From Manis javanica (lineage: Eukaryota; Chordata; Mammalia; Pholidota; Manidae), in assembly GCF_040802235.1 (NCBI RefSeq), contig NC_133169.1, positions 48,429,034-48,493,033 of the forward strand: a DNA stretch of 64,000 nt. Direction: 5' to 3'. Shown here piece after piece: positions 4,900-64,000 of the stretch. A program made the position numbers and the translations under genes. Positions within the stretch are counted from its first letter, which is position 1. Each line of letters begins with the position of its first letter. The notes under the pieces are model-generated. The model did no database searches. It was given only the letters and a program-made list of their open reading frames with translations, and was not told the origin of the DNA.

Positions 4900-6318
4900 T
4901 TCACTTCAGGGACTGTCCATGACTGGAGCCATCTGTATTATACCAAGCATCTTCGGGTATAGGGGCTTTTCTTTCTTGATAAGGACTCTCGGCTACCAAT
5001 GGCTCAAAAGCAAGTTCTTTCTGCTTTCCACTATAATAGGTCACTGGCCCTAATAAGTGTTGGAGTTCTCCACATAAGGAGCTAGCTAGTAGAGAGGGTA
5101 CTATGCTGCTGTAAATATGCACCCCATTGGGCCAATGTAGGCATCTATGCCACACCACTCCATTGCATTTTAGTCTCGCACCCACCCAGCAATGGGATAG
5201 GTAGTTATTGCCTTGGTCAGAGCTGTTCCGGCAATGGGCTCCATAGCCAGCAAGGTGTGGTACACAGCAGTCACTTGATTCTCTATCAAGGTGCACTGGA
5301 CCTCTGCTCCTTTCCACAGTTGTGACCAGAATCTGATAGGTTGGTGTGTCCATTCAAGCTGCTGCCAAAAACCCCAACCATAACCATCTTGGGTTACATG
5401 AACATCTAGCTCACAGGGCCTTGGTGAATCCATTATACTCAAGGCCTGGATGGTCTTGAATGCCCGCTTGGCAGCAGTAAAAGCAGCTACACATGTCTCA
5501 TCCCAGTCCCACCTGCTGCACTTTCCTGCCAACCAGTAAAAGGGCTTCAGAATTTGTGCCAAGTGCGGGATAAACACTCTCCAGTAGCCCAAAAGACCCA
5601 AAAAGTCTTGTAAGACTGCCACAGTGGTAGGGGTGGGGAAAGTTTGGCCCTCATCTATGATTGCTTCAGGAATAACTTTAGTTTTAGCCAACCAGACAAC
5701 CCTCAAGAATTTTACAGACAAACCAGATCCCTGAGCTGTGGTGCTGTTCACAGCCCATCCTTTCTCTTGTAGATGTTGCAGCAGTCTAGGAACTGCCCCT
5801 TCTAAATCTGAAAAAGAATCAAACGTGAGCATAATAACATCAATGTAGTGATACAACCACACCATTTGCAGTTTCTTCCATGTGGCCAAGTCCTCGGCCA
5901 CAAGTATGTGACAGATGTTGGAACTGTGGAGGTATCCCCGTGGAAGGACAGTGAATGTCCCCTGCCAGCCTTCCCATATGAAGGCAAACTGTTCCTGGCT
6001 TTCCTGTGCTATGTCAATAGAAAAGAAAGCATTATTAGCAAGGTCTACAACATAATGATATGTTCCCAGCTCCTGGCTGAGGGTGTCCACAATGGCTAAT
6101 ATAGAGGGGACAGCAGCATGCAAAGGGGGTGTGACTTTATTCAGTTTTCTGTAGTCCACAGTCATACTCCAGGAGCCATCTGGCTTTTTCACTGGCCACA
6201 CTGGGGAATTAAAAGGACTATGAGTGGGCTTTATGATGCCCACCTTCTCCAACTCCTGTAGAGTTTCTCCAATTTCCTTATGCCCCCCAAGCAATTTATA
6301 CTGCTTAGTATTTGTCAC
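4900..6318 (-). pseudogene. ERV-A pol fossil (RT/RNase H region)
   Basis: The longest open stretch (5170-6318) reads as retroviral reverse transcriptase followed by the connection/RNase H start. Family knowledge: class I endogenous retroviruses encode pol downstream of gag. It is similar to the pol of ERV-B at 33.8-35.9 kb. It is a decayed copy with several breaks. Confidence 0.88.
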
Positions 6319-9406: not shown

Positions 9407-9682
9407 ATTAAAGAATCCTTAAATGAGGTAAGGAACACCAGTGGGTAAAAAGGCTGAGCGGAGTGATCAAGCTTTGAATTTGGTCCTGAAGCACTGAGAA
9501 TCTCTTAAAGGAGGAAGGCATTCCACAAGATGGTCAGACCATGAATAAGGGTGTATGTACAAGGGGGGAAAATGTCTAGAAGACCATGCTCAAAAACAAA
9601 AAGGGCAGGTGCCCCCTGGTACTGTGTGGGGTGAGTGCTCTCCCACAACCATGCAGCCCAGGCTGGCCCTGAATGTCCTAAG

Positions 9683-9715
9683 TTGCTGACCTTCCTTCTT
9701 TTCCCTTTCCTCCAG
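9683..9715 (+). other. Splice acceptor before the IRG coding exon
   Basis: A strong 3' splice site: branch-like TGCTGAC at about 9684-9690, a pyrimidine tract from 9691, and AG at 9714-9715. The coding exon would begin at 9716, 20 bp before the ATG. This matches the usual IRG layout of untranslated first exon(s) plus one long exon holding the entire coding sequence. Confidence 0.7.
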
Positions 9716-9735
9716 CACCTCTCCTGAAACCAACC

Positions 9736-10992
9736 ATGAGCCAGTCCTCCTCCTCCAGATCGCCTGCCCCAAATGATCATGATTTGGCCTTCAACTTTGA
9801 CATGTTTTTTAAGGCATTCAAGTTAGAAAGGAAAATCCTCTCTCAGGAAACAATCAATTTGATTCATTCATGCCTGATGATTGGGAACCTTCAGACAGCA
9901 GTTGATATCATCACTGAGGCACTGAGAGAGATCGAGAATGCTCCACTGAGCATTGCTGTGACTGGGGAGACTGGGTCAGGGAAGTCCAGTTTCATCAATG
10001 CCCTGAGGGGTATTGGGCATGAGGGAGAAGGTGCAGCCCCCACTGGGGTGGTGGAGACCACCATGGAGAGACTTCCATACAAACACCCAAAGTTTCCAAA
10101 TGTGACATTCTGGGACCTGCCTGGCATTGGTTCCACTACCTTTACACCAGAGACATATCTGAAGAAACTGAACTTTGGTGAGTATGACTTCTTTATTATT
10201 ACCTCTGATACACGCTTCAGGGAAAATGATGCACAGCTGGCCAAAGCAATTGGAAAAACAGGGAAGAATTTCTACTTTGTTCGAACAAAAGTGGACAACG
10301 ATATACATAATGAACGAAGAAGTAAACCTCAGACCTTCGACCAGGAGAGAATCCTACAAATGATTCGCAAGAAATGTCAGGGAAAACTACAGGAGGACAA
10401 TGTGAGTCACCCTCGGGTCTTCTTGGTCTCCAACATTGATGTGTCTGACTATGATTTCCCAAACCTGGAGATGACACTTCTGAGGGAACTCCCAGCCCAG
10501 AAGCGCCACATCTTCATGCTCTCCCTGCCCAGTGTCACTGAGGCCGCCATTGACCTGAAGAGGGACTCCCTGAGGCAGAAGGTGTGGCTGGAGGCACTGA
10601 AGGCTGGATTCCTGGCCACCATCCCTTTTGTGGGTGTGATCAGTGATCTGGAGAAGCTGGAGGAGACCTTAACCCTGTACCGGTCTTACTTTGGCTTGGA
10701 TGATGCATCCCTGGAAATCATGGCCAAGGATTTGCATGTGTCAGTGGAGAAACTCAAGTCACACATTAAGTCTCCACATTTGCTGTCTGTTGAGAAGGAT
10801 AAAGATTCCCTAACGAAAAAACTGTTGAAATGTATTGAAATGGTTTTGTCAGCCATGGGGGGGCCCCTTGCCACTGGACTGTACTTTTCAAAGACCTTCT
10901 ATTTGCAAAATTGCTTTCTTGATACTGTGGCTAGTGATGCTAAAGCTCTCCTTAAAAAAGAGCTTTTCACAGAAAAGACCAGTCTTTCCTAG
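9736..10992 (+). CDS. Interferon-inducible GTPase, TGTP/IIGP1-like (GKS-class IRG), intact
   Basis: A 418-residue single-exon open frame of usual IRG length. G1 P-loop GETGSGKS lies at residues 77-84, the G2-region threonine in APTG at 101-104, G3 DLPG at 127-130 and G4 TKVD at 184-187. N- and C-terminal helical regions flank the G domain, as in mouse IRGA6. The text closest to my memory is mouse TGTP (IRGB6) and IIGP1, for example FGEYDFFII and RSYFGLDDASLE. Family role: interferon-induced GTPases that coat and disrupt vacuoles of intracellular pathogens such as Toxoplasma. The protein starts MSQSSSS, so it lacks the myristoylated Gly2 of IRGA6. The GKS P-loop marks an effector rather than a regulatory GMS protein. 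The start is the first Met, just after the acceptor. One-to-one orthology with TGTP or IIGP1 cannot be settled by eye. Confidence 0.95.
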   Translation: MSQSSSSRSPAPNDHDLAFNFDMFFKAFKLERKILSQETINLIHSCLMIGNLQTAVDIITEALREIENAPLSIAVTGETGSGKSSFINALRGIGHEGEGAAPTGVVETTMERLPYKHPKFPNVTFWDLPGIGSTTFTPETYLKKLNFGEYDFFIITSDTRFRENDAQLAKAIGKTGKNFYFVRTKVDNDIHNERRSKPQTFDQERILQMIRKKCQGKLQEDNVSHPRVFLVSNIDVSDYDFPNLEMTLLRELPAQKRHIFMLSLPSVTEAAIDLKRDSLRQKVWLEALKAGFLATIPFVGVISDLEKLEETLTLYRSYFGLDDASLEIMAKDLHVSVEKLKSHIKSPHLLSVEKDKDSLTKKLLKCIEMVLSAMGGPLATGLYFSKTFYLQNCFLDTVASDAKALLKKELFTEKTSLS

Positions 10993-22957: not shown

Positions 22958-24044
22958 TCAGACAGTGGAGTCTGTCAGGACATCCCTCAGGATGTTCTTG
23001 GTGTCCTTGGCAACTCCTTCAAGGAGGTATCGGTGTCTCCCCTCTCTGAGGTGCTGGGCAACAGGGTCACCCAAGAGCCAGAAGTAATTAAGGACTGAAT
23101 GTAAAGAAGAGGCTGCCTTATAATACATCGAAGGAGGTGTCCACTTTTCTGAGAGGACAGTGAGCAGATCTTGGGACTTCATGGCAGCCCTGTACTCCTC
23201 CAAGGAAGTCCCCAGGGTCTGGGCCACCTGCTGGAGAGACTCATCATTCACCCCAAAGAACAGGCGGTAGGCTTCAGACACTTCCCCAAGTCATCTGAGT
23301 CCTGGATGCCTGGTCTTCTGGGAAAGGCTTTGAGGCCATTTTCTCCTGCAGAGAGGCCACTTTGTTGTTAATGATGTTCTCGCAGGTGTGGGACAGTTTT
23401 TTAAGGCCTGGTGGTGCCTGATGTCAGAGAGGTCACTGCACAACCACAATGTGTCTCTCAGCTCTGGGAAGTCATGCAATGAAGGTTCGAGGTTGGACAC
23501 CAGGAATGTGGGGGGTTCACATATCCCCCTCTTCTGGAGATTTTCCCTGATATACCCCCGGATGTTCTGCAGAAGCTGGTCCTCTGAGAGGATACTCGTG
23601 CTCAGGTCCCTATCCAGCTTGGCCCACACGATGGAGAACCTCTTTCCCAGGCCTTGGATGGTTTTGGCGAGTCTCACGTGATTCATGCTTAACTTGCTCG
23701 GATGCCGTGATGATAAAGAGGTTTGGCTGAACAGCATCTCCCCCAGATGGTTCTCCAGGCTTTGCACAGCAGCCCCCATGCTGGGAAGGTCCCACGGCAT
23801 CACATTGGGAAGGCAGGAGGATGAGTAGCTGGTGGGACTCTGGGTGGTCCTCACCACCCCAGTGGGAGCTGAGGTCTCCTCCTCGTGCCCGAGGCCCCTC
23901 AGCACATTGACGAAGGGGGACATGCCATTGCCGGAGTCCCCTGTCACCGCAACGCTCACCTTAGCACTGCACGCTACCTCCAGGGTCTCCCTGACCACAG
24001 AGACCTCCCCAGCAACTTCCCTTCCTCCAAGGCCTTCTCCATGC
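22958..24044 (-). pseudogene. IRGM: IRGM-type (GMS-class) immunity-related GTPase pseudogene
   Basis: On the minus strand, ATG at 24044-24042 opens MEKALEEGKLLG. In another frame this continues as VVRETLEV and the P-loop GDSGNGMS. The methionine of GX4GMS is the hallmark of the regulatory IRGM class. Downstream text (LSMNHVRLAKT, VWAKLDRDLS, ENLQKRGICEPPTFLVSN, HDFPEL) matches human IRGM and mouse Irgm1 as I recall them. The C-terminal part 22958-23281 retains YRLFFGVNDESL. Frame changes are seen near 24010, 23735, 23698, 23397 and 23285, the second and third roughly compensating. G3 is DLPS rather than DLPG. The hydrophobic region that targets IRGM proteins to membranes is not evident. Family role: IRGM proteins restrain GKS IRGs on self membranes and promote autophagy. 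The breaks make a full-length product unlikely, though a short human-style form cannot be excluded. Confidence 0.85.
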
Positions 24045-24340
24045 TCCTGTCTCCCAACTCAGGTGACACGCTGCAGCCCGTGCTGTGCTGCCCAGCAGAG
24101 TCATAGGCTGCAGGTAAGGGCGTGGAAGGGGACAGGGCAGGCGGTGTCATGTCTCTCCACAGTGGAGTAGCCTGCACAAGGAGGAAGAGCACAGGAGTGA
24201 GGGCCAGGTGTGCAGGAGGCAAAGGCACCATCAGAAGGCCAGGCTCAGATCCACGCCCACAACCCACAGCATGGACGTTTAGATTAGAAAAGGCCAGCCT
24301 TTGGGAAACTGTTTGAAAGTTTCCCTTAAACATACATTCA

Positions 24341-33777: not shown

Positions 33778-34914
33778 TCAACAGGTAGGAAAAGCAACCA
33801 GAAGTCCAGTAGCTGTGTCCACACAACTCATAGCATACCGATATCCTTCTGACACAGGTAGAGGCCCAGTGTAGTCTATCTGCCTCCTGACGAGGGGTAT
33901 AGGCCCCTTAACTATTGTTCCATGTTGCTGTGGAACTAAGTGTAAATCCCTTTTGGAGCACATGACACACTCCTGCTGGGCTCTACCAACTTCCTCGAAG
34001 GTCAAAGACAAGCCCCACCGATGGGACGCAGCCCACATTGCCTTTTGCCTTGCATGCAACAAACGCTGATATAACCATTGGGCTACATCAGAGGCAGGCT
34101 TTCCTTCTAACCAACGTATCTGGGCCAATTTATCTGGTTCATCGTTTCCTCGGGATGCCAGGGGCAAATGACTTGTCACATGGTATACTGTAATTATTTT
34201 AGTCTGACCACAGGCCCATAAGTCTTGCCACAATTCTTGCTCCCAATGGAGTTGGTGACCAACCAGCCAGTTGGCATGGTACCAGGTTGGTAGCCACAGG
34301 GTCAAGCCCCAATACACAGCCCAGCTGTTAGTGCAGACAACTATAGGGGAGGGCTCCTGGCTGATCACAAGCCACACAGCCTGCAACTCTGCCCATTGGC
34401 TGCTCTTCCCCTCACCATCTTCCATCCATATTGTCTCAGTCTTAGGATGGAAAGCTATGGCCCTCCATTTGGGTGGTTGCCCATGGCTGGAGCCATCTGT
34501 GTACCATGCATCTTCGGGTATAGGGGCTCTTCCCTCCCAATAGGGACTCTCTGCTACTAATGGTTCAACAGCAAGTTCTTCCTGCTTTTTACTAGTACAT
34601 GTCACCAGGCCAAATAAGCATTGGAGTTCTTCACTCAAGGGGCTACCAGAGAGGGCACTATGCTGCTTTAGGTAAGCACCCCACTTGGCCAGTGTGGGTG
34701 TTTGTGCCACACCACTCCTTGACTTTTGGGTACAGTCTCGTACCCACCCCAAGATGGGATAGGGGTTATTACTTTTATTGGGGCCATTCCAGTGATGGGT
34801 TCTGTAGCGAGCTAGGTGTAATACACGGCAGCCAGTTTTTTTCCTATCAAAGTGTATCATACCTCTGCCCCTTTCCAGAGTTGTGATCAGAATCCAATAG
34901 GTTGACAAATTCAT
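33778..34914 (-). pseudogene. ERV-B RNase H/integrase fossil
   Basis: An open stretch of 378 codons with RNase H text (TDGSSHG, EDGEGKSSQWAELQA) followed by an integrase-like zinc region and core (DYTGPLPVS, CVDTATG). It is the best preserved protein stretch of either retrovirus, yet it is isolated from the rest of pol and is treated as a fossil. Confidence 0.9.
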
Positions 34915-39439: not shown

Positions 39440-40530
39440 TGTCTTGGTTTTCTAGTGCGGAGGCCCAGCATGGGGGACCATCGAGGAGCTGCGAGAGGGA
39501 GCCAGGGGCGCTGCGGAACCCGGGCGGGGCGCCGCTGGAAAGCCTAGACGGGGCAGAGGGCCACCTGGCGAGACCCTAGCGACGGCCGGGGTGGGACTCG
39601 GGGTGGGACGGGGGAGGGGCGGGGCCGGAGAGAGGGGTTGGGCGGAGCTGGAGCTCCTAGGGGCGGGGCCTAATGTGGGCCTGAGGCGGGGCCTGAGCCG
39701 GGGTGGGCGGGGCGAAGAGCCAGGGTGGGACGGAGTTGGAGCGGGAGTCAGCCGGGGCCGGAGTCTCAGTCGGAGCTAAAGTCCTAGTAAAAACGGGGCG
39801 GGCTGGGGCCGCTGCCGGCGGACTTTCCGAAAGCTTCTCCCTCGCGCCCCGGGGCCCGTGAAGGCGTCGGCTCCAGGCGGCGGGCCCCACCTCTGCAGAC
39901 AGGCTCCGCGGAGGTCGGCGCCCGGGGCAGAGCGCAAGGCTGGCGGCCAGGAGTTGGAGGAGCCCCAGGAGCGCGCGCGCCGGGCCGCTGCCGGCCCTGG
40001 TGCTGCTCCTGTTCGTGCTGGGGCTGGTGCCGGAACGTGCGGCAGGTGATGAGGCGGAGGGGCGCCGGGGACCAGGGCAGGACAGTCGTCCCCCGACCGG
40101 AGCGGAGCGCGGCTGAGGGAGCCTGGGGACAGAGCGGGCCTGGGGACGGGGATGGGGACGGGGAGTCGGGGGCTGACTCGGGACTGCTGGGGCGCCGAGC
40201 CGCGGGTGCGGCAGGCCCTTGTCTGTCGCCTACCGCTGCGGATCGGGGCGGCGGGGTCCGGCGGCGCCCCCTGCGCGGCCTAGCCGACGCCGCAGCTTCC
40301 GGGAGTTCCCCGTGCGCGCCTTCGGAGCACGCCGCTCGCGCTCGGCTCCCGGGCCTGGGTTCTCCGGAAGGCCCCGGGGGTGGGGGTGGGGGTCTTTTGC
40401 GGGCAGTAACCAGGTGGCCGACACGCCCCCTGCCAGCTATCGCTCCCCGCGGGGCGTCTCACTGGGTCCGTGAGAGCCGCTCTCCGGTTGACAGTGCGGC
40501 CCCTGGAGGAGCTAGAGGATGAAGAGGGGA
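39440..40530. promoter_or_regulatory. CpG island promoter of the class I-like gene
   Basis: Very GC- and CpG-rich, with many GC-box runs (ggggcggggcc-type, about 39600-39720) and no TATA. It covers the putative first exon and the start of intron 1. A motif GGTTTCAGTTTTG at 40574-40586, just past the island, is one base from an IRF/ISRE core on the minus strand. CpG-island promoters usually indicate broad expression. Confidence 0.8.
39940..40045 (+). CDS. Class I-like exon 1: signal peptide, CTG start proposed
   Basis: Frame AARSWRSPRSARAGPLP then ALVLLLFVLGLVPERAA: a basic n-region, a Leu/Val h-region and a small-residue cleavage site, ending G|GTGATG in phase 1 as in class I genes. In this frame a stop lies at 39859-39861 and no ATG occurs before the splice site. 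CTG at 39940 has A at -3 and G at +4 and is followed by GCGGCC, exactly what a class I start ATGGCGGCC would leave after A-to-C. So either CTG initiation or a lost start. Confidence 0.65.
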
Positions 40531-43500
40531 AAGGGGATTTCTCTGACCCGGCTCGGAATTTCCATTCCGTCCCGGTTTCAGTTTTGCGAGCAGAGCTGGC
40601 CGGGCCATATCCTGGGTTCCCACGGCTCGCTTAGGTCACCGCCCAGTCCGGCCAGGTGCACCCAAGCGGGGACTTTTATTAGCACAGGCGAGGAGGTGTC
40701 CGCCATCGCTCTGGTAGTAAGAGCTGGTGTGCTTTCTGCCAAGCTCTATTCTAAGCGCTTCACAAGCAAAGACGCCATTTCGTCTCTCGGGACACAGCCT
40801 CAGTTTACAATTAACGGATTTACAGAGTAGGCGCTAGGTGGCAGGATAGAATAGTTCTTCACCTTTTTTGTGCCTTGGACCCCCTCTAAGAGTGTTGTGT
40901 GTTTTTTTTTGAGAGGGCATCTCTCATATTTATTGATCAAATGGTTGTTAACAACAATAAAATTCTGTATAGGGGACTCAATGCACAATCATTAATCAAC
41001 CCCAAGCCTAATTCTCAACAGTCTCCAATCTTCTGAAGCATAATGAACAAGTTCTTACATGGTAAACAAATTCTTACATAGTGAGTAAGTTCTTACATGG
41101 TGAACAGTGCAAGGGCAGTCATCACAGAAACTTTCGGTTTTGATCACGCATTATGAACTATAAACAATCAGGTCAAATATTATTCGTTTGATTTTTATAC
41201 TTGATTTATATGTGAATCCCACATTTCTCCCTTATTATTAATAAAATGCTGAAGTGGTAGGTAGATGCAAGATAAACATAGAAAACATAGTTTAGTGCTG
41301 TAAGAGGGCAAATGTAGATGATCAGGTGTGTGCCTATAGACTAAGTATTAATCCAAGCTAGAAAAGGGCAACAAAACATCCATGGATGCAGAAGATTGCT
41401 CTCAAAACAGGGGGGGTGAGGTTCTAAGCCTCACCTCTGTTGATGCCCAATTTCTCACCTGATGGCTCCCCTGCAACTGTGCCTGTCTTAGGTTGTTCCT
41501 CCCTTGAGGAATCTTACCCGTCTCTAAGAGTGTTTTTAATGCGTAAAATGAAATAAATGCATAGGATTACAGAGAAACCCAATTGTGTTTCTACAAAGCC
41601 ATTAAAGTTTTGAACTAGAATTATGTATATGTGATCTGTAATGTATGTGCTCCTAAGCTAACACATTAAATAATGCATTAAATAGCAACAGTTCCCTGAA
41701 TTTGGAAGGAGGGTGAAGCACATTTCCAGGTGTCTGCAGCAATTGTCATGTGATTCGAATAGAACTGTGGCCTTCTATGGGGTATCAAGGTACAGGTCCT
41801 GCTAAACCTGATGAGCCTTGTTACAAACTCCATTCATAATGGGAGAAAGGCTTAATTTCCCCTGGAGGTAAGTGAAAATAAATGTTATTTTTCCCTCCAA
41901 GTTGAGGCTCCTGAGCTCAACAAGCTGCCCGTGCAGGAGGATTCAGCCATCAGCTGCCCAAGGGAAACACTTGATAGAGAATTATCCTGGATGTCTGCAC
42001 AGATCAGGGTAGAGTTTGGCCAACATCCCTAGACCTGGAACCTGGGGGGACTGGGCCAGTGTCTCTGGGCCAGAGCTGTGTAACCAGTCTTGGTTTTCAG
42101 GTTCACACAGCTGCTGGGGATCCTTCTCATAGCCCCTCTCTGGTGCAGTAGGAGCACACAGATGATCCCAGTTCTGCATGGCAGGGATGCTCATGGGTGT
42201 GTGCACACAGGCTCTGTAGCCTTTTGGGTGTGAGGGGTGTCAGGGCTGGCCCAGGGTGATGGGACCCTGAGCCAAGGAAGAGGGTAGGAGTGGTAGGATA
42301 ACCCCAGGTGTGTGCCAGATTGTAGGGAGATGGCCTGTGATGGGGAAGTAGCCAGGGGCTCCTGGCAGGACCCTCACAGTGCTCCTGGGTGCCAGTTTCC
42401 CTTCAGGAGGTAGGGAGGGAGGAAGTGGCCTCCATGGGGCAGATTTGAGTGCTGCAGGAGGGCGTGCTGAGCCTCAGGGTGCCCTGTGATGGACGATTCA
42501 TTTATTATCCCCACAGTAAAGAGCTGGGGCTTTAAGAAGCTAACCAGCTACCCAGGATTGCACAGTTCCATGGCTGGTTAGGATTTGGACCCAGCTGGCA
42601 GCATGTGAGCATCACTGGGGAGGTTTCGATGCTGCCAGGGTGCAGGCTAAACCCACGAAATGCCTGTCAACAGCAGGGTTGTCAAAGCCCCAGGCAGTGC
42701 TGGGGCAGCCAGGTGGAGACCTTCAGGCAGAGGGGGAGGCAGCCCAGCCCAGCTTCCCTCCTCTCTAGGTGGTTAGTCAGGGCCTACCTCACAGGAATGC
42801 GGCGAAACACCATGGAAAGCCCAGAACCATGCCTAGCACCGAGGCCCAGAACTCAGGCCAACTGGATTTTTGCCTGTGTGCCAGAGAAGGTTCCAGTCTC
42901 CTGAAAAAGTCCCCCGTGTCTCTCTCCCCATTGTGCCTCTCATCACTCTATACTGTTATCATTCATGCCATCCCTCCCAGCAGACACAAGGATGTGTAGG
43001 GTACTCATGCCTTGAGATTCATACTTCCTTTCTCCATTTCCCCCTTGCAGAGAGTCCCTGGGCACTGCCTTTAGTGGCCGATGGCCCCGTTCCGTTAGCA
43101 AAGGTGTTGATGGCAGAACTAGCCAAAGTGCAACTGGAAGACAAGCCATGGCCAAGAGGTAAGGCCTTGCCCACCTGTGGAAGGAGGGACAGGTTGGAGG
43201 GGGCCAGGAGCCCCCAGCCTGCAGGAGGGCATGTCACAGTCTGGGAACCTGGTGGACTGTCCTGGGGTTGGGGAACTGCCAGGGTAGGAGACACAGAGGC
43301 CAGAGCCTCTGGAGGTGCCCCAGGGCCTGAGGCCTGGCTAGGACTCTCCCAACTCCAGTTCTTTCTTTCCCATGCCTGCCTCTCCTTCAGGATAGGAAAG
43401 GTATGAGGCTAAGATGATGTCTGCAGAGACCTTCCTGCAAGCCTGCACTTCTCCGTTATGTTCATTAGTTCCGTGAATGCTCCAGCGCCATGGAGCAAGT

Positions 43501-46500
43501 CAATTAATTGCCCCCACTTACAGATAGGAAAACCGAGGCTGCGAGCTGTGCAGGAACTTCCTCAAAGCAACACAGAGTGGCAGTGCCAACTTGGGCTCTG
43601 CGGAGGTGGGGACGATGCAAGCCAAGTCTCCAGGGCAGGCCCTGCACCTCCCTCCCCCATCACAGTCAGAGGAAGAGGGAGGATCTGCTTAAGGGGGTCA
43701 GAACTGTCCCCTACTGGGGACTGGCCACATGGCCCAGTGACCAGGAAGCGGCAGTGGAGGGGCGATGATACAGACTGACCCTGAGGCAGCCATGGGCATG
43801 TGCTACCTTCTTAGGCCATGTCACAGCAGAGATTAACCTGGAAACCCCCGTGTGGCCCCCACGTCCTCTGCTGTGGTTCCACAGTAGCTGGCATTTACCC
43901 AGCCAGCCAGGGGTGTCACCTCCAAAGACAGAGGTTGCCTGATGATTGCCCTCTCAGCTTCTTTTGCCCCCTCTGGGCAGGAGCCCAAGGCACTAATGAT
44001 CCCTCCTGGGTCCAGTGAGTAACTGGATGTCCAGGCCAAGCTCAGACTGTCTTCCTCCGGCAGAAGAGGCGTATGGGCAGCTTGTGAGCCCACAGAGAGC
44101 AGACAGCAGAGGATTTTTAGGGAAGAAGGGATGGTAGGCCCCTCACTGGGTACGTGGAAGGCAGTGCCTGGAAGTGAGCTGAATGAGGGGCCCACAGTCA
44201 TGTACTTGTCTCCCAAATAGGTGCCTGACCCCCAAGATGGGCACGGGGTGCCATAGCGTGGGCTGTGGGAGAGGCAGCCCAGAGTGTAGCAGGAAGGACT
44301 GGGCCAGAGGCTGCATCCAGGCCATTCCGGACACTGTCTGGAAGAAGATTTGGGATCAACCCCTTCTTTCACTGCTACTGCCTCCTGCTGCCAAATCCCA
44401 GCACTGTTTTATTTTTTCCCTTGCATAATTGCGGCGGCCTACAAACACCCAGAGCACGCTCCTGCCTCAGGACCTTTGCACTGGCTCTCCCCGCTGCAGA
44501 CCTAGAATGTGCTCTCCCAGATCTCTACATGGCTGGCTCCTTCAGGGTTTTACTCCTTTTGGGAGAGGCCTTCCCTGCCTGTTGTAACCATAATTTTAAA
44601 CCTCTCCCCTAACATTTTGCATATTTCTGCTTTATTTTTCACCCTCAGCACTCATCACTGTCCATCCTGTCGTCCTGTGTTGTTTATCTTGCTTATCCTA
44701 CATTCCTTTAAGCTTTCTGAGAGCAGGCAAGAGGTGGGGGTATATTATTCTGCCTATCCCAGCATCCCCAGGGCCTCAGAGAGGGTCAGACAGTTGGTGC
44801 TCAGAAAGTACTGGCCGAGTAGAGCAGCAGGGAGGGCCCCAGGGGCCATGTCATCTAGGCTGCTGGGTAGGTAGGGCTGAGCTAGCTTAACCGGTAACCA
44901 GGATGGTGTCTAGGGAGGGCAGAGAGTGGGGAGCTACCAATGCAGAGGGGCCTGCTCGCCTGTGCCCAGCCGCACAGTGTCCACAGGAGCTTGTTCACTG
45001 AAGGGCGGGTGTGGCCAGGGCCTCCTGGAGAGCCTGGGTATGCTGTCTGGCCCTGTTTTTCGCTGCTGGTATGAGGTTGGCAGGTGACTTTGCCTCTCCA
45101 TGGCTCATTTTTCCATCCATCTGAGGTACCACAGGACCTGCCTGATGAAGTTGCTATGAGGGTCAGCCTAGCCAGAATTTTGTAAAGTGCTCCACATATG
45201 GCCCAGCACCTAAGTGCTTTGGAATTCTTTTGTAAATTTTAAAAGGAGCATATTGATAGACTTCCCCTCACTTTTAACCCAAGATAACTGGCCATTAAAG
45301 CAGCTGACATTAACAAACACTAACATTACACACTAAGCAGTTAGCATGCCAGCCCTAACCCAACAACCGGTGGTGTGTTGCTTGGCTTCCCACCATGCCC
45401 GGCCTTGGGATCGCTTGGTCTTCAGCACCTTCTCACACCTGGGGACGAGCATGTCAGTACCTTTGGGGGCTCTCTGGTGGTGGGAGCACCGGGGTCCCTG
45501 GGACCCTGCTCTGCATCTCAGGCCTCGGTCCCAGCAGTGGCTCAGAGACTCTGGCTGCAGTTTTCAGGGGACGTCCTTCTTCCCAGACTGTGCAGCCACC
45601 TCCCTCCCAGTTTCAGGGCAGCAAGAGCCATGACCTTCAGCGCTTACGGGTTTGAACTGGCCACCAATCTCACAGGACACAACAGGCTTTAGTCTAATAC
45701 CACATGTATTCGTTTCCGATAGCTGCTGTAACAGATGACCACAACTGGGTGGCTTAAGACAACACACATTTATTTTCTTACTTCTGGAGGTCAGAAGTCC
45801 CACATGGGATTCACTGGGCTGAAACCAGGGTGTCAGGCAGAGCTACCGCAGATCACAGCCAAGGAGCAATAGGTCACCATGATGCAGAGAAGCCTCAGCC
45901 TCTGTTCCCCCAAGGCTCTGTGCCTGTTCACAGCACCCAGCCCAGGCATGCCCCCACTGACTTTCAGTGGGTGGTTTGCAAGGAAACGGCACCCTGAGAG
46001 AGGTTCCAGTCATTCCCAGAGGCTCACCACAGCCCAGCCCTGGTGGCAACCCTGTGCACAAACACTTTCAGTGCTGACCCTTCTCACCTCCTAGAAGGAG
46101 ATTCCTCCAACCTTGTGCCAAGAGTTCATCTTTCCTGAGCTTAGATAAAGGCAGCAGGCTCTGGGGAGAGAATGCAGCCTCCCCACCTTCTAGTGCAGGA
46201 CTCAGCCTCATCTGTAAAGCAGGGCCAGTCACACTGACTCCTGGGGTTTATCCTCAGGATCAACTAAGATGGTAAATGAAAAGAAGCCAGACCAGGGCAG
46301 GCTGTGATCATCACTGCTATTCATGCTCTCGTTTTTTGTCCAATTCAACAAACACAGGAAGTGAGTGCCCACTGTGCACCAGGTGTGGTGTTCCCCCAAA
46401 GGCCTGTAGAAACGTCGGTGACACAGATGTGTGGCCTGCCCTCATGGAGCCCACAGCTCCACAGGGAGCACAGAGGCCCCTCTGACAGATGTCAGGGTGG

Positions 46501-49500
46501 AATGAGGAGGGCTTCCTGGAGGAAGGGACACCTGAGTTACAACCGGAGGGATGAGGAGACATTGGCCAACACAAGAGAGGAGAGGGGAGTGCTGGGGCAG
46601 AGGGCCTGGGCAGAGTTTGGTGTGGCTGCAGTGTAGGTAAACAGTTGTGAAGGTGTTTGAGCCCCTCCTTTCACATTTCAGTGTTCAGACATCGAGCACC
46701 TACTGTGTGCTAGATGCTGTTCTTGGCCCTGGGGAAACAAGAACAATCCATACAGGAATCCCAATCCCTGTGAGCTGAGATTGCAGGGGAGAGACACACT
46801 GAACAAGATAGACAAGTGAAGTGCATATTCTTTATGAACTGGTTGTGCTCTGGAGAAAACACAATGACAGGAGTACTAGGAAGGTAAATATTTCATGGGA
46901 CAGGCAAGAAAGGCATCACTGATAAAGTGGCATTTGAGCAAAACCTTTTTAAAAAATTAAGGGAGTGATCCATGGAGATTCCTGAAGTGGGCTGAGTTTT
47001 TAAAGATACGTTTGTTTTAATAACTTGAGTCAGAACTGGCTGCAGAGTAGATTTCACTTCCAGCACCATGTTGAATGGGTGAGCTGGTGCTTCTGGAGAC
47101 AGTAGAGAACAACTATGAGGCTGCTTTTGCACTTAAAGAGAAGAGATCAACTAGCAACATCTGCTGTGGGAGCGGGAGGAGCAGGTAATGGAGTTGGGAT
47201 GCCACCCGCTTGTCAGCAATGACTCAGGCTGAAAGTGATGGACCACCTTTATCCAGCATCTCTGGGGAATGAATGATTCCATGTAAGTTAAGCTTCCAAA
47301 CCTACTTTTTAAAAATTACACTTTTTAATTGTAAGATGGGACACCAGAGAATCACATTGAACTCCAGACATGAGTGCAAAGCCTGAGTAAGTGGGCCCTG
47401 AGAGAGGAACTAGGAAACCTCTGGGCATAAAGTCCACAAACCTTCACGCATGAATTTGGCCTCAGTGTCTGATTATCTTTCTAACCTGTTGGGATGCCCT
47501 TGCTTTTATGACTGTAATTCCCAGCTCCTGCACTCCCTGAGAGCCGGCACTCCTGACAGGTTTCTCCTGCCCCACCCACCATGTCACACCATCCCTGGCG
47601 CAGACCCTGGCAGTGCCAGTAAGCCCAGGGCCACTTTGTGTTTCCACAGGGACTCACTCCCTCCGCTACCACTACCTGGCCCTGTCAGCGCCAGGCCCGG
47701 ACCTACCCCAGTTTCTGGCTGTAGGCTATGTGGACGACCATCCCTTCATCCAGTATGACAGTCATGCGGACAGGGCTGAGCCCCAGGTCCCATGGATGGC
47801 GCCCCTGGATGCCCAGTACTGGGAGACAGAGACCCAGAAGCAGAGGGTCTGGGCGAAGGTGCAGCAGGTGGAGACATGGATGGTGATGGGCTACCACAAC
47901 CACAGCAGCGGTGCGTTGGGCGGGCCCCCGGGCCCCGCTCCCTGCCCACCTGCATGTTCATGCTCCAGGCAGCTGTGCCTGCCAGGGGACAGGCTGCCTC
48001 CTGAAGCCTCTCAGAGGGTGCAGGGTGTGCTCCTGACGCGTGGCTCTAACCCCACAGCCAGGCAGAGCGCACTTCTCCTAATCCTGGCCTCTCCCTCTGC
48101 CACCAGGTGCAAACTGGCAAAGCTTGTCCTTCCTCACCTCCCACCCTCCCCAAACGCCTCATATCACACCAACCCCCAGGCTCCGACACCATCCTGCCTC
48201 ATAGGGGAGGGAGGCCAGATGAACTTGAACTAGGTGGATAGCTAAGGGTGGAAGAGAGCCCAGGCGAGGACCCTGCTCTGCCCAGCATCAGCAAGGACTG
48301 GGGGCATTTCTCAGCCTTAATATCCTGGTCTCAGCAGTGGTGAGCTCACACCCACTGTCAGGGTGGCTGCCAGCCTGGATGAGGCACCTGTGGGGCACAG
48401 CTTGCCCACACAGCACCCATCCCCCACGTGTCTGGACACCCAAGTGACTGGAAGTCTCAGGTCCCAGAGGCCTTGGAAGGAGTAGGTGCAAAGGCCCAAG
48501 ACTGGGAAGAGCTGTGCAGCAGCCCAGGGCCCCTGGGATGACCACCACCAGCCCCCAGTGGCCCCTGTAACCATCAGGCTCACCAGAGTTCACATTTTAA
48601 CATCACTGAAATTGGGGCATGACTTAGTTCTACCTCTGAGGACATGTTACACCTGTAAGTAGCCATTTTCCCTTCAAGTAATGATGTGCCTAATGAATTC
48701 AGGCCCTCTTCCCACATAAGAGACTCAGCAGGCTTCTCATGAAAATTACCTGGGGATCATTTCTTTAAATGCTAGCACCCTGCCCCCCCACCCCAGTTGG
48801 CAGGCTGGAGTTCCAAGACAGCCAGTGTTTCAGTTTGAGTCCAAAGCCCCTGTGGTTGGTGGGCTACCCGTCACGACCCCAGGCATCTCAGGCAGCCTTC
48901 TTGCCCACCTGCAGGCATGCACAGCACACAGCGCATGTTCGGCTGTGAGGTCCAGGAGGACGGCCACTCCAGTGCCTTCTGGCAGTTTGGCTTTGATGGG
49001 CAGGACCACCTGTCTCTGGACCTGGAGACACTGAGCTGGGTGTCAGCCAAGCATGTGGCCATAGGGACCAAGCGCTGGTGGGAGGCCGAGCGCTGCTATG
49101 CAGAATACGACAAGGCTTACCTGGAAAGCATCTGCCTCAGCTCCCTGCACAGGTACCTGGAGCTGGGAGGCCAGAGCTTCACTCGGAGAGGTAAGGCCCC
49201 TTGGCAAGTGGTTCCAGGCTCCCGTTCACAAGAGCCATCCCGCTTCACAGAGAGGCCCTGGGGAGTGAGGGGATGGCTCTGCTCTCCTGGCCCAGAAAGC
49301 CAGCCAGCCAGTAACAGGTTCCTCATGCAGAGCAGGACAGAGCCCAGACCACGGGCCCTTGCTTCAGGGGGGTTGGGGAGTCTCCCTACACAGTGGTCTT
49401 GGGGAGTAAACCCCTTAACTATGGGCCTTCCTTATCTACAGGTGGTCATAAAGTACTTTTAAAAACTCCTTGGGAAACAGACCCCAGGCTGGTCCCTGGG

Positions 49501-51865
49501 CCACTGAGGACTGTCAGGGAGGTTGATGCCCTTCTCCCCACTCCTCCCACACACGCCCTCCATCCTGACACTGGCCAGCAGGGCTGGAACAAACATTAGG
49601 GAAGGTGGGTGCTGGGCGGCTGAGACAGGGCCTCGCCATGTGTGTCTGGTGTGAGTGGTGCATGGTGCCTTGGCTGAGGTGATGGGGAGGTCACCCCCCA
49701 GAGGAGGCCAGGACAAATACCATGAAGGGGAGCAGCACGCACGCAGTCAGAGCCCAGGCTGGAACCCACCCTCCGGATCCGTGTCCCAGCCCCAGGACTT
49801 CCGGGGGCGGTGATCCTCAGTTTCTTCCTCAGTATAGTAACCGCCCCTCCCTCCTCAAAGCACCTAAGCCTGTCCTAGATTATTGGGTGTTGAGCTCTCA
49901 CCCGGCACTAGGGGGCCTTCTGCACCCTTCACCTGCTGACTAGGCATGGTTCTCCACAGAAACCAACCAACAGCATGTAGAGGAAGAGAAGTAGAGAGGA
50001 ACTGGCTCACAGACAGGAGGCTGGGATCTCCCCAGATCTGCAGTTGGCAGGCTGGAGTTCCAAGACAGCCAGTGTTTCAGTTTGAGTCCAAAGGCAGGAA
50101 AAGATGCCCCAGCTCCAAGCAGGCAGGCAGGAGTCCCCTTTCACTCAGCCGTTTTGTCCTGTTCAGACGTGCAATGGTTCAGATGTGACTCTCACCCAGA
50201 AACACAATTGCACAAACACCCAGAACACGGTTTGACCAATGCCTGGACACTGCGTGGCCCAGTGAGGCTGACACTTAAAACGAACCCTCAAATCCAAATC
50301 ATTATGCCATTTGGAACAACACTTGAAAGAAAGTAATGATAGACCCCCATTAGGCACTAAGAGATGGGGGCTGTGCACAGGTGGCAGGCTGGGTGTCCAA
50401 CCCAGGCTGTCCAGCTCTAGAGCCAGGCTTGCAACCACCCTCATTCCATGGTGAGGGAAGGGCCATGGGTCTTGCTTTCATTTAACAACCTCTTGTTAGG
50501 TACCTACTGTGTGCAAGAAGTCACAGTGAAATATGGAACATCTCAGTGGTGAGAAGCAGGTTGTCAGTACAGGACCCTCCTTGGAGTTTGGGGGCAGGAA
50601 ATCACATCTCTGCCATGGGAACCCCCAGGAGCAGCCCCTTTGGGACAGTTGCCAGTGGATCATCCCTGCCTCCAACACTGGTCAAGTGCCTCCCCTGGAG
50701 AGACCCTGTCTCACACCCTGAAGATATCGGAGGAGCCCAGGGTCAAGCGTGAGGGATGGCGGAGAGCAGCTGCTCACCAGCTTCGCTCCCCCATGTCTCC
50801 CTGCAGAGCCACCCAGAGTGCACGTGACAGGCCGCACAGCCCAGGCTGGGGGCACCATGCTGAAGTGCTGGGCCCTGGGCTTCTACCCACAGGACATCTC
50901 ATTGAGCTGGTGGCTGGGTGAGGAGGAGCTAGCTCTCGAAACCGAGTACGTGGAGACACGGCCCAGCGGGGATGGCACCTACCAGACGTGGGCAGCCGTA
51001 TGGGTGCCAGCTGGGAAGGAGGCCTTGTATGCCTGCCATGTGCAGCACTCCAGCCTGGACCATGTGCTCACTGTGGCCTTGGGTGAGGAGCTGGGCTTGG
51101 CTGGAAGGAGGGGAGGTAGGGCAAGCCAGGTCCCAAGGCATCCAGAGATAGTCCCCTGGCTGGGGGTGGTACCCCCTTTTCTCTGCCTTCCTTAGAACTA
51201 CCCTCTCACCAGTGGATGACCTCCATCACCATTGTTATCACCATTCTCTTGCTGGTGGCTGGAATTGTGTTCCTGGTCAGGAGGTGCCGTCAAGGTAGGT
51301 AGGGAAAAAGAAAAGTGATTGGGAGGCCGTGTGGCTGGCCTGTCCCTATGGGGGAGAGGGTTGTGCTCCCACCCCTTCAGCAAAACTGTTTCCTCTGGGG
51401 GAGAGGCAGCCACAGCCGAAGCTATGCCCCCTGTCACCAACCTGTGGGAAAGCCCAAGCACCCTCACCCCATAGCACACACTGCCTGAGGACCCTGCAGA
51501 CCCCACAGTGAGGGCAGACCACTGGGCCTGACCGTGGAAAGGCCCCAGAGGAGGAGAGCAGAGGGCGGGGAAGGTGGGGACCCCACTGCCAGGAAGAAGG
51601 AATCTCAAGAGCAAACGCCAGGTGACTGTGGGATAGGTGGGGTGGAGAAAGGAAGCCCCAGGCGCTCCCCAGCATGGCTGAGATGCCTGAGAACCAAAGA
51701 CAGAAGCCAGGGGACCCTGCCCCCTTCCACGCCTGGAACCAGGCCCCAGGAAGCCGCCACCCGGAAGCAATTGGATCACCTCTGTCTCTCCTCCCTGCAG
51801 GTGGAACAGGCCCTCGCTGTTACCAAAGCCCAGATGGAGCAAGGGCTGCTCAACAACTCTGCTGA
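39940..51865 (+). CDS. MHC class I-like heavy chain gene, seven coding exons, outside the MHC
   Basis: Exons 39940-40045, 43051-43158, 47650-47910, 48915-49190, 50807-51082, 51196-51294 and 51801-51865 join in phase 1 throughout and stay open to TGA at 51863. The product would be a signal peptide, a 36-aa extra segment, alpha1 (87 aa), alpha2 (92), alpha3 (92), a single membrane span and a short tail. Cys pairs for the alpha2 and alpha3 disulfides are present (FGCEV/LESICLSSL and LKCWALGFYP/YACHVQH), as is the N86 glycan site (NHS). By family it should pair with beta-2-microglobulin at the cell surface. Peptide-terminus residues Y7, Y59, Y84, T143, W147, Y159 and Y171 (HLA numbering) are conserved; K146 is Trp. 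The extra exon recalls rodent MILL genes. No ATG precedes the signal peptide in frame. Alternatives are a MILL relative, another non-MHC class I lineage, or a recently inactivated gene. The exon model is strong; the family name and start are not. Confidence 0.85.
40897..41521 (-). mobile_element. A-tailed retroposon, copy 2, with 13-bp target-site duplication
   Basis: Minus-strand copy of the same element as 24341-24888, about 625 bp, with its A tail seen as T10 at about 40901-40910. It is flanked by perfect direct repeats CTCTAAGAGTGTT at 40884-40896 and 41522-41534, a hallmark of L1-machinery insertion. It contains the same internal tandem units (about 41039-41106). It lies in intron 1 of the class I-like gene, antisense to it. 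Confidence 0.85.
41535..43050. other. Intron 1 of the class I-like gene, remainder
   Basis: Unique-looking intron sequence. A fragment at about 42490-42600 resembles MIR/L2 text (ggatttggacccagctgg). No other exon is recognised. Confidence 0.5.
43051..43158 (+). CDS. Class I-like exon 2: extra 36-residue exon between signal peptide and alpha1
   Basis: Strong acceptor (cttcctttctccatttcccc followed by cttgcag) and donor GAG|GTAAGG. It starts with 2 bases and ends with 1, so it is symmetric phase 1 and can be included or skipped without shifting frame. It encodes ESPWALPLVADGP, VPLAKVLMAELAK and VQLEDKPWPR, an amphipathic-looking segment with no cysteine. Classical class I genes lack such an exon; mouse Mill1/Mill2 are reported to have one at this position. 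Confidence 0.7.
43450..43610 (-). repeat. MIR/L2-like fragment
   Basis: The stretch cttacagataggaaaaccga, then ggctgcgagctgtgcaggaa, resembles the cagatgaggaaactgaggct region of MIR/L2-type repeats. Old and partial. Confidence 0.4.
44435..44825 (+). repeat. L2 LINE 3' region
   Basis: Contains the L2 phrases caggacctttgcactggctc, gagaggccttccctgcctg and a final gttggtgctcagaaagtact. Lies in intron 2 of the class I-like gene. Confidence 0.75.
45060..45215 (+). repeat. MIR SINE
   Basis: Shows the MIR core order: gtgactttgcctctccatgg, catttttccatccatctgag, ttgctatgagggtcagc, tttgtaaagtgctccacata. Ancient and without lineage information. Confidence 0.65.
45700..46130 (+). repeat. Ancient MER-type interspersed repeat
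   Basis: The phrase gctgctgtaacagatgacca, then caactgggtggcttaagaca and acacacatttattttcttac followed by ttctggaggtcagaagtccc, is a common mammalian interspersed repeat whose family name I do not recall with certainty. Confidence 0.55.
46325..46950 (+). repeat. Two adjacent copies of one ancient repeat
   Basis: Both 46340-46600 and 46675-46950 follow the same text: gagcaccyactgtgtgcyag, then a gttcttggccctgggg-like line, tcatggagc, and later a gctt/catttgagcaaa stretch. The family (an old LINE or DNA element) is not named with confidence. Intron 2 of the class I-like gene. Confidence 0.5.
47650..47910 (+). CDS. Class I-like exon 3: alpha1 domain
   Basis: 261 bp, acceptor CCACAG, donor G|GTGCGT. 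Begins GTHSLRYHYLALS and contains VGYVDD, VPWM and the helix ending GYHNHSS. Three residues shorter than HLA alpha1, mainly by a gap after the DSHA strand. Y7, Y59 and Y84 equivalents and the NHS glycosylation site are kept. Confidence 0.93.
48794..48846 (+). repeat. 53-bp direct repeat, copy 1
   Basis: From cagttggcaggctggagttc to tttgagtccaaag. Identical base for base to 50041-50093. It ends 68 bp upstream of the alpha2 exon. Confidence 0.95.
48915..49190 (+). CDS. Class I-like exon 4: alpha2 domain
   Basis: 276 bp, the exact size of classical exon 3. Acceptor CTGCAG, donor G|GTAAGG. Begins GMHSTQRMFGCEV. The helix reads TKRWWEAERCYAEYDKAYLE then SICLSSLHRYLE. T143, W147, Y159 and Y171 are kept, K146 is Trp, and Y99 is Phe. 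An extra Cys (ERCYAE) is unpaired in the canonical fold. Confidence 0.94.
50041..50093 (+). repeat. 53-bp direct repeat, copy 2
   Basis: Identical to 48794-48846 and in the same orientation. The pair brackets the alpha2 exon, and the flanking bases differ at once on both sides. Confidence 0.95.
50807..51082 (+). CDS. Class I-like exon 5: alpha3 immunoglobulin domain
   Basis: 276 bp. Acceptor CTGCAG, donor G|GTGAGG. Contains LKCWALGFYP, VETRPSGDGTYQTW and YACHVQHSSL. The CD8-contact loop (HLA 223-229, DQTQDTE) reads ELALETE, losing Q226 and D227, so CD8 binding is probably weak or absent. Confidence 0.95.
51196..51294 (+). CDS. Class I-like exon 6: connecting peptide and transmembrane segment
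   Basis: 99 bp, acceptor CCTTAG, donor G|GTAGGT. Encodes LPSHQW, a span MTSITIVITILLLVAGIVFL of about 20 residues, then the stop-transfer cluster VRRCRQ. The Cys next to the basic cluster is a possible palmitoylation site. Confidence 0.9.
51801..51865 (+). CDS. Class I-like exon 7: cytoplasmic tail and stop
   Basis: Acceptor CCTGCAG|GT. Reads GGTGPRCYQSPDGARAAQQLC then TGA at 51863-51865. A single Tyr (CYQSP) is present but not in an obvious YXXphi sorting motif. A good poly(A) signal is not obvious downstream; AGTAAA near 52091 is a weak candidate. Confidence 0.7.
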
Positions 51866-52436: not shown

Positions 52437-53135
52437 GGGGAGAGAAAATCCCGGAGCAAAATACCTCTAAAACCAAAATTAGTCAAAGGAGAGAAAGTTT
52501 AAAATCCGTTTTTTGCATACAAACTGCAGTCCAGGGCCATTTCTCTCTCCTACTCCAGGAAAAGCAAAACCAGAACTCCCCCTAACCTCTCAGGTTCAGA
52601 CATGCCCTCTGTTGCCCAGGTAATTACCCATTGACTTGGAGATGAACTCTCCACCCCTGAGGATATGCAAATGCACTAAAGCCAGGTGAGATATTCTAGA
52701 AATGTTACAATTTTACCCACAGGCCACCCCTCCAGAAATCTCGCCTTACAATCTACTGGTCCCCTTCTTCCGCAGTGGTCACTGAGCAAGAAAGCTGGAG
52801 CATTGTGACCAGACTAATGACATACAATAGCAACAGCAATAAAATTATGACAATCCTCAAGCCAGAGGATTCAGCCTATGCAGATTAAGTGGATGTGCTT
52901 TATAGCACAATCTCTCGCTAAGCACAAAGTATGTTTAATACACTATTATTATCACTCGCTACACTTGTTTACTCATTCCTAACAACCATGCTAGATTACT
53001 CACAAAACTTTTACTGAATATTAGACAAAGTTGAGCCTCTTTAAGCATTTTTTCTTGACAACAGCAATTAAAATCATGATAATCCTCAAGACAGAGGATT
53101 CAGCTGGGTTCAAAGTCCCATGCAGATAAGTATTT
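52437..53135 (-). repeat. Solo LTR of ERV-A type
   Basis: Follows the ERV-A LTR in order and orientation (the region near 52497-52560, then ctaaagccaggtgagatatt at 52677-52696). A segment of about 60 bp around 52832-52890 recurs at about 53060-53125, so the copy carries an internal duplication or a second partial LTR. No retroviral interior is present. Confidence 0.7.
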
Positions 53136-62755: not shown

Positions 62756-63070
<315 letters not shown>

Positions 63071-63194: not shown

Positions 63195-63747
63195 TGCCGC
63201 TCGGCGGGGAGTGAGTGGGCTCGAGGCACCTCGGGAGTCCGGGTCCCGGCCTGCCCCTCTGCCGCCGGACCGTCCCCTGGGGGCCGCCTGTCGTTCGCTC
63301 CGCGCGGTTACAGGCCGTCCGCGGCCGGAGCGCGCCCGCTGCCGACTCGAAGAGCCTACTGAGTGGGGCGCGTCTCAGTAGAAAAGCGCTTTACGCGCCA
63401 CATGCTCTTTTTCTAAGCCCACTTGTGGCGCTCCAGCTTGTTTCCCACCCGGATCTGCCCCTGCGCGTTAGGCTTCGGGTAAGACTCGGAATGGGCGTCG
63501 AGCGGAGTGGCGGAAGGGGACTCCGCGGGCGCGGGTGGCGTTGTGCACACCCGAGCTGGTGCTCGCGGCGCTGCTTGGCTGTACCCGCCTCCTGAGCAGT
63601 GAGTCACCGGGCGCGCAGTCCTCCCCTCCCGAGTGTCTGATGGCTTGTCCCATGAGACCGCCAATGACCCTGAGGCGCCCTCCGCTACCCAGTGTCTGCA
63701 GGTGGGCCGTGGTGTCCTCACCCGGTTCCTTTCCGTTTCCCTCTTAG

Positions 63748-63919
63748 ACAAAACCATCATCATGTGGAAGCTGACCAGAGACGAGACTAACTACGGCATC
63801 CCACAGCGAGCTCTGCGGGGCCACTCCCACTTTGTCAGTGATGTGGTCATCTCCTCGGATGGCCAGTTTGCCCTTTCGGGCTCCTGGGATGGAACCCTTC
63901 GCCTCTGGGATCTCACAAC
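63748..63919 (+). CDS. RACK1: RACK1 exon 2, GC-type donor
   Basis: Acceptor CTCTTAG, then [34 protein letters not shown] and the [16 protein letters not shown] repeat end. The exon ends ...CTCACAAC in phase 2, followed by GCAAGT, a GC-AG donor. The alternative of reading on hits non-RACK1 sequence. The rest of RACK1 lies beyond the window. Confidence 0.97.
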
Positions 63920-64000
63920 GCAAGTAGCTGCTCACTTGACTCTGGGGCATCAGGGAAAGCAGGGCAGAGGGGAGGGAGAGGCACTGTCGGGAGGCTTCCC

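Follow-up and report, generated by a model that had tools for sequence, protein, structure and literature searches.

We analysed a stretch of 64,000 nucleotides from the pangolin Manis javanica (the window; positions below are counted from its first letter) and found on its plus strand, at 39940-51865, a gene for a heavy chain of the major histocompatibility complex (MHC) class I type. It is almost certainly an old, single-lineage, non-MHC class I gene that lies upstream of RACK1 in placental mammals; it has an open seven-exon structure, belongs to a family that forms a clade of its own, and shares with that family a conservation pattern opposite to that of classical class I. The reading that we favour goes further: the gene would be the one described in rabbit by Boudinot et al. 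2016, its product would display a single ligand, and its translation in pangolin would begin at a non-AUG codon or in an upstream exon. To this full chain we give a probability of about one half.

Joined in silico, the seven exons gave 396 codons and a stop. When they were spliced from the window sequence, all six introns were GT-AG and all six internal exon boundaries were in phase 1, and the alpha2 and alpha3 exons measured exactly 276 bp each; seven open phase-1 exons with good splice sites, and these two exon sizes, were what an earlier note on this DNA had reported. Pfam profiles found MHC_I (6e-51, residues 72-245) and C1-set (3e-10) domains in the spliced protein, which has the layout of the MHC class I superfamily, an alpha1-alpha2 platform with a C1-set alpha3; a transmembrane exon is present, as is leader coding sequence without an in-frame ATG. 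The features of the gene, all on the plus strand, are as follows.

39500..40499, +: CpG island over promoter and exon 1 (GC 0.75-0.76, CpG observed/expected 0.76-0.92, four 250-bp bins)
39820, +: single kB-like site GGACTTTCC within the CpG island
39940..40045, +: exon 1, leader peptide; first codon CTG, upstream in-frame stop at 39859
43051..43158, +: exon 2, 108 bp, 36-residue N-terminal extension (ESPW..ADGP..MAEL..KPWP) ahead of alpha1
47650..47910, +: exon 3, alpha1; Tyr7, Tyr59, Tyr84 and the Asn86 glycosylation site retained
48915..49190, +: exon 4, alpha2, 276 bp; Thr143, Trp147, Tyr159 and Tyr171 retained, Lys146→Trp, Trp167→Ser
50807..51082, +: exon 5, alpha3 (C1-set immunoglobulin domain), 276 bp
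51196..51294, +: exon 6, connecting peptide and transmembrane helix; hydrophobic stretch, helix 328-355 in the model of the contig-derived protein P0001 (see below)
51589..51621, +: relic of a cytoplasmic exon, ARKKESQEQTPG; acceptor TG, donor intact; skipped in P0001
51801..51865, +: exon 7, short cytoplasmic tail and stop, ending AAQQLC
52838..52843, +: AATAAA, candidate polyadenylation signal

The ortholog alignment has in many species a small cytoplasmic segment like ARNKESYEQAPG. In pangolin it is reduced to the relic, which has no AG acceptor; thus the seven-exon model is right here, but reduced. An identical 51-base stretch occurs in the intron before alpha2 (48796-48846) and in the intron before alpha3 (50043-50093).

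A class I family of placental mammals

The earlier note had proposed a protein search domain by domain; made with the whole protein, the search scored 7993 candidates and gave 453 matches at E ≤0.001, of which the best 120 were listed. By our own count, 96 of these 120 were of the same family (51-100% identity); the other 24 were classical or mixed, namely the 21 rows from P0098 onward and three sheep models (42-45%). The family rows among the best 120 span ten placental orders or larger groups: pangolin, carnivores, bats, even-toed ungulates and whales, moles and hedgehog, squirrels and marmots, hare and rabbit (the latter as P0088 and P0092), tree shrew, Afrotheria and Xenarthra. In the same 120 of 453 we saw no family row labelled primate or murid, these groups being present only as classical rows, and no canid or horse family row. 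Such absences are provisional, since only 7993 candidates were scored, the best 120 matches were listed and some rows carry no species label. Automatic annotation has given family members names taken from other genes, for example ‘H-2 class I ... Q10 alpha chain-like’.

A rabbit class I-like gene, reportedly called MHX, is reported to have appeared with mammals, to be highly conserved and to have been lost in primates and Muridae (Boudinot et al. 2016, PNAS 113:E2983). As the distribution of the family matches that of this gene, the gene of Boudinot et al. 2016, we regard the lineage as already described, and the pangolin gene is very probably the same gene. The two are alike in their conserved binding domains and in their distribution, which takes in rabbit, hare and a wide range of placentals but, among the matches listed, no family row from primates or murids; the RACK1 linkage and the CTG start of the pangolin gene, on the other hand, are not known to have been reported for the rabbit gene. 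The earlier note had supposed a non-MHC class I lineage retained in this species and lost or undescribed in others: the non-MHC lineage and its retention stood, the best 120 matches held no primate or murid family member, and ‘undescribed’ is not supported for a gene so widespread in placentals. The window thus adds a pangolin member to a class I-like family that is known but little studied. A literature search, mostly at listing level, turned up no paper naming the RACK1-linked gene, from which we claim no absence from print, and nothing on the function of the lineage.

For the tree, 24 family members (two of them pangolin) were picked from the 96 for completeness and spread. They were compared with eight eutherian classical sequences, one class I sequence of the opossum group (Gracilinanus), five MIC sequences, human MR1, HFE, ZAG, FcRn and CD1d, and chicken BF2, making 44 sequences in all. 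The 24 formed one clade with 100% support, separate from classical class I, MIC, MR1, HFE, ZAG, FcRn and CD1d; within it the alpha1-alpha3 tree recovered Afrotheria, Xenarthra, Carnivora and the even-toed ungulate and whale group as clades. Lepus P0036 and P0018, a row without species label, lay inside, so that the pangolin gene groups with the lagomorph gene. Of the groups that the earlier note had listed for a tree, MIC, FcRn, ZAG, CD1, MR1 and classical class I were covered, and the family was set apart from each of them.

In alpha1-alpha2, the pangolin protein was 65-84% identical to 22 members of other species, 42% to Gracilinanus, 44% to MR1, 38% to HFE and to chicken BF2, 33% to ZAG, 27% to FcRn, 24-34% to MIC and 20% to CD1d. 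One could suppose that an ordinary classical class I copy had recently moved beside RACK1; the closest non-family matches listed were indeed classical (best 60 of 879; best 120 of 453), and pangolin alpha3 is 49-55% identical to classical alpha3. However, the alpha1-alpha2 identity to eutherian classical sequences is only 39-44%, the gene has an extra exon 2, and it has orthologs in Afrotheria and Xenarthra. In approximately unbiased (AU) tests, run on 22 of the 44 taxa with marsupials represented by one sequence, a group made up of the family and eutherian classical class I without the marsupial was rejected on alpha1-alpha3 (p 0.0005), but neither part by itself rejected it (alpha1-alpha2 0.07, alpha3 0.10). 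A recent move is already contradicted by these data and we consider it highly improbable.

Since the grouping with eutherian classical class I alone is rejected on alpha1-alpha3, the lineage most likely arose before the classical class I of marsupials and eutherians separated, as judged from one marsupial sequence. That was the only rejection; the AU tests left deeper placements open, neither a sister relation with MR1 (0.19) nor one with MIC (0.42) being rejected on alpha1-alpha3. In maximum likelihood (ML) trees of alpha1-alpha3 the family stood beside mammalian classical class I (support 77 and 76). Trees of alpha1-alpha2 put it outside classical class I and chicken, the 44-taxon tree also outside MR1 (92), and the 22-taxon ML tree joined it to HFE with weak support; thus alpha3 and alpha1-alpha2 signals point to different placements.

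The 36-residue exon-2 extension is conserved and aligned across orthologs. A search limited to exon 2 gave 32 matches (E ≤1, 36 candidates), all of the same family by name and identity, in a procedure blind to relatives that have no short exact words in common with the query. Predicted isoforms from Meles (P0038), Ailuropoda (P0044) and Orycteropus (P0068) omit this exon; as it is symmetric in phase and skipped in some isoforms, two mature N-termini may exist. Rodent MILL proteins are non-MHC class I molecules with an extra exon between leader and alpha1 and a glycosylphosphatidylinositol (GPI) anchor. The pangolin gene also has such an exon but, unlike MILL with its GPI anchor, encodes a transmembrane helix. 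The exon-2 query matched no PDB chain at E ≤10, though mouse MILL2 (6a97) was in the library, and a search with MICA gave no row named MILL among the best 120 of 122. As regards UT, a passage of PMC4509613 states that none was found outside marsupials and monotremes and puts the opossum cluster on chromosome 1.

Conservation of the groove and the possible ligand

Across nine orders (36 pairs), family members were on average 79.8% identical in the platform (range 65-88) versus 73.6% in alpha3 (range 64-82). This is the reverse of what we saw for five classical sequences from four orders (10 pairs; 73.3% versus 81.1%) and for five MIC sequences (52.1% versus 57.2%). Tyr7, Tyr59, Thr143, Tyr159 and Tyr171 were kept in 24/24 family members and Tyr84 and Trp147 in 23/24. 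At the groove ends, position 146, classically Lys, was Trp in 21/24, Arg in 2/24 and Leu in 1/24, and position 167, classically Trp, was Ser in 24/24. Of the classical Ia set that holds the peptide termini (Y7, Y59, Y84, T143, K146, W147, Y159, W167, Y171) seven of nine residues are therefore kept. Other groove columns, 62 and 69 for example, vary within the family. Compared with classical class I (HLA-A/B/C, H-2 K/D), the gene shares the exon layout, the 276-bp alpha2 and alpha3 exons, these seven groove residues and the Asn86 site, and differs in the extra exon 2, K146W, W167S, the reversed conservation and the locus.

The excess of conservation in the platform over alpha3, opposite to the classical pattern, suggests a fixed ligand: the conserved platform and near-fixed groove would fit the display of one conserved ligand to a receptor of low diversity. 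MR1, in which alpha1-alpha2 is also strongly conserved, is a model for such a function. It is likewise a non-MHC class I molecule, its alpha1-alpha2 is 44% identical and its alpha1 loop is equally short, two residues below the classical length. The ligand would, however, not be that of MR1; in the column of the lysine that forms the Schiff base in the A' pocket (Lys43, MR1 numbering), Lys in human MR1, all 24 family members have Ala, and MR1 falls outside the family clade, with the sister relation at the AU value of 0.19 given above.

By this scheme the heavy chain would pair with beta2-microglobulin and reach the cell surface carrying a glycan at Asn86. One kind of ligand would be held in a groove with altered ends (Lys146→Trp, Trp167→Ser) and would be shown, by analogy with MR1, to a T cell of restricted receptor. 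We propose this function tentatively, at slightly less than even odds. A near-fixed groove in a conserved class I-like molecule would imply that ligand and receptor are conserved as well.

The same groove could also belong to a ligand of an innate receptor or of a non-immune partner, as in MIC, ZAG, HFE and FcRn, with the N-terminal extension perhaps covering or blocking it. HFE, ZAG and FcRn illustrate that the class I fold is able to lose presentation; two groove-end residues are altered family-wide (W167S in 24/24, K146 replaced in 24/24, by Trp in 21), the 36-residue extension is conserved, and there is the weak grouping with HFE in the reduced alpha1-alpha2 tree. Retention of the seven classical groove residues in at least 23/24 members speaks against it. 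We consider such a role possible but doubtful. In an AlphaFold2 model of P0001 (mean predicted local distance difference test score, pLDDT, 70; predicted template modelling score 0.52) the extension was left unplaced at pLDDT of about 34-50, which neither supports nor excludes a role in the groove; the idea that the exon-2 peptide fills the groove thus found no backing in the model.

Several points weigh against the full chain of single-ligand display by the gene of Boudinot et al. 2016 with an unusual start. Both halves of the groove argument are made by analogy. The identity with the rabbit gene is drawn from the reported distribution of that gene and from a passage of a review, according to which that gene has evolutionary features in common with MR1. 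Among the best 120 of 453 matches there was no marsupial or monotreme family member, although the rabbit gene is reported to have appeared with mammals. Finally, no in-frame ATG was found in exon 1 downstream of the stop at 39859, so that the gene may have been lost recently in pangolin.

Start of translation and state of the pangolin copy

The earlier note had called the gene complete. As exon 1 has no ATG, completeness is doubtful: the 5' end is unproven, and the model starts with CTG. The codon at 39940 stands in good Kozak context (GCAAGG CTG G; −3 is A, +4 is G). The earliest ATG of the joined exons falls in another frame. Several other species have in-frame upstream ATGs. Translation in pangolin would begin at a non-AUG codon, the best candidate being CTG 39940, or in an unseen upstream exon; with neither of these, no signal peptide would be made.

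In an alignment of the leader region (23 rows) we compared the column of CTG 39940 as residues, not codons; it held Leu in 18 rows, Pro in three and a gap in two. Rows set aside were the stoat P0011, whose Leu comes from a different aligned stretch, and two jaguarundi rows, whose Pro comes from another reading frame. Among the 18 comparable models there were 17 with Leu (pangolin included; P0050 doubtfully aligned) and one with Pro, that of hippopotamus. The manatee model has its initial Met one column past this position, and the models of hare (P0036), elephant (P0046), star-nosed mole (P0048) and tenrec (P0049) start at an internal Met of exon 2. Since most models have Leu at the CTG column and several start internally, a near-cognate start across several lineages is possible; for a conserved CTG start, residues in a column are suggestive only.

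Evidence on expression comes from P0001, a 376-residue spliced protein from independent contigs (the longest of 2172 nt), with 99% identity over 95% of our model. The contigs come from a source labelled ‘lgn’, which we took as assemblies of public reads. Exons 1 (in part) to 7 are joined in ≤2172 nt, against 12 kb in the genome, which indicates a spliced transcript; a retrocopy is less likely. Use of the AATAAA at 52838 would imply a message of about the length of the 2172-nt contig. Apart from its first residue, a Met that corresponds to GTG in the window, P0001 departs from the window at a single position. It lies in alpha2, where the window has His and P0001 Arg; as Arg is likewise found in P0029, a model from M. 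javanica, this may be a difference between alleles or between species.

With its start codon gone, its cytoplasmic exon without an acceptor and a residual transcript, the pangolin gene might be a recent pseudogene. The lack of an in-frame ATG past the stop, the out-of-frame first ATG and the TG acceptor of the relic exon agree with this, and P0029, 100% identical over 61% of the query, starts at an internal Met and has no signal peptide. On the other hand, 396 codons are open, every splice site is intact, a spliced contig is known, and P0001 matches the window but for the His/Arg residue and the GTG read as start; the Leu found at the CTG column in most other models also leaves room for a near-cognate start. 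In simulations of neutral substitution, 0.45% of runs stayed free of stops at 0.10 substitutions per site, falling to 0.05% at 0.18; as 59% did so at 0.01, only old decay is excluded. A pseudogene is, in our view, unlikely, and we favour a functional heavy chain with a non-AUG start or an upstream exon.

Surroundings of the locus

The earlier note had placed the gene between IRG GTPases and RACK1, and both flanks were borne out by open reading frame (ORF) and profile matches and by exon matches.

9682-10989, +: IRG GTPase ORF, 436 codons between stops, earliest Met at codon 19; full-length IIGP match (3e-148)
about 22964-24058, −: second IRG GTPase, diverged and perhaps partial; 32% identity over 368 residues, partial IIGP match
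62933-63046, +: RACK1 exon 1; 95% identity, residues 1-38
about 63747-63950, +: RACK1 exon 2; 88% identity, residues 37-104, the alignment overrunning the exon end

The two IRG GTPases thus lie on opposite strands, and RACK1, with its remaining exons outside the window, is on the strand of the class I gene. In other species, models fuse the class I gene with RACK1 or borrow the names of neighbours: tree shrew P0108, spotted hyena P0008 (‘RACK1 kinase, partial’) and pig P0027 (‘Tripartite motif containing 52’). These indicate that the RACK1 linkage is not specific to pangolin.

A passage of PMC8813856 describes TRIM7 and TRIM41 next to the RACK1 homologue (GNB2L1) in the chicken MHC (B locus), all three being on human chromosome 5. 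With a RACK1 homologue within the chicken MHC, as that passage has it, and a mammalian class I gene adjoining RACK1, the latter may be a relic of an ancestral MHC; the tree tests leave such descent undecided. One could speculate, and we think it improbable as a whole, that in the ancestral amniote MHC class I genes had TRIM7, TRIM41 and RACK1 as neighbours, an arrangement still seen in chicken, and that this gene survives from there, that it was kept for one fixed ligand and one invariant T-cell type since lost in humans and mice, and that it uses a non-AUG start in pangolin and perhaps in other placental orders. The adjacency bears on how the mammalian MHC was broken up, since chicken keeps RACK1 within it. 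Humans and mice appear to be without the gene, so that immunology based on model animals would be blind to this class I-like molecule; in livestock, bats and cats it is present but misleadingly named.

Upstream of RACK1, two stretches of ∼100 bases, from 61290 and 61995, look alike by eye; both start with TTTAAAAACTATTTC and lead into a GC-rich segment, and the pair is possibly a local duplication. Two pieces of retroelement pol lie on the minus strand of the window, at 5173-6318 and 33781-34914, one with a reverse transcriptase and an RNase-H-like domain and the other an RNase H ORF.
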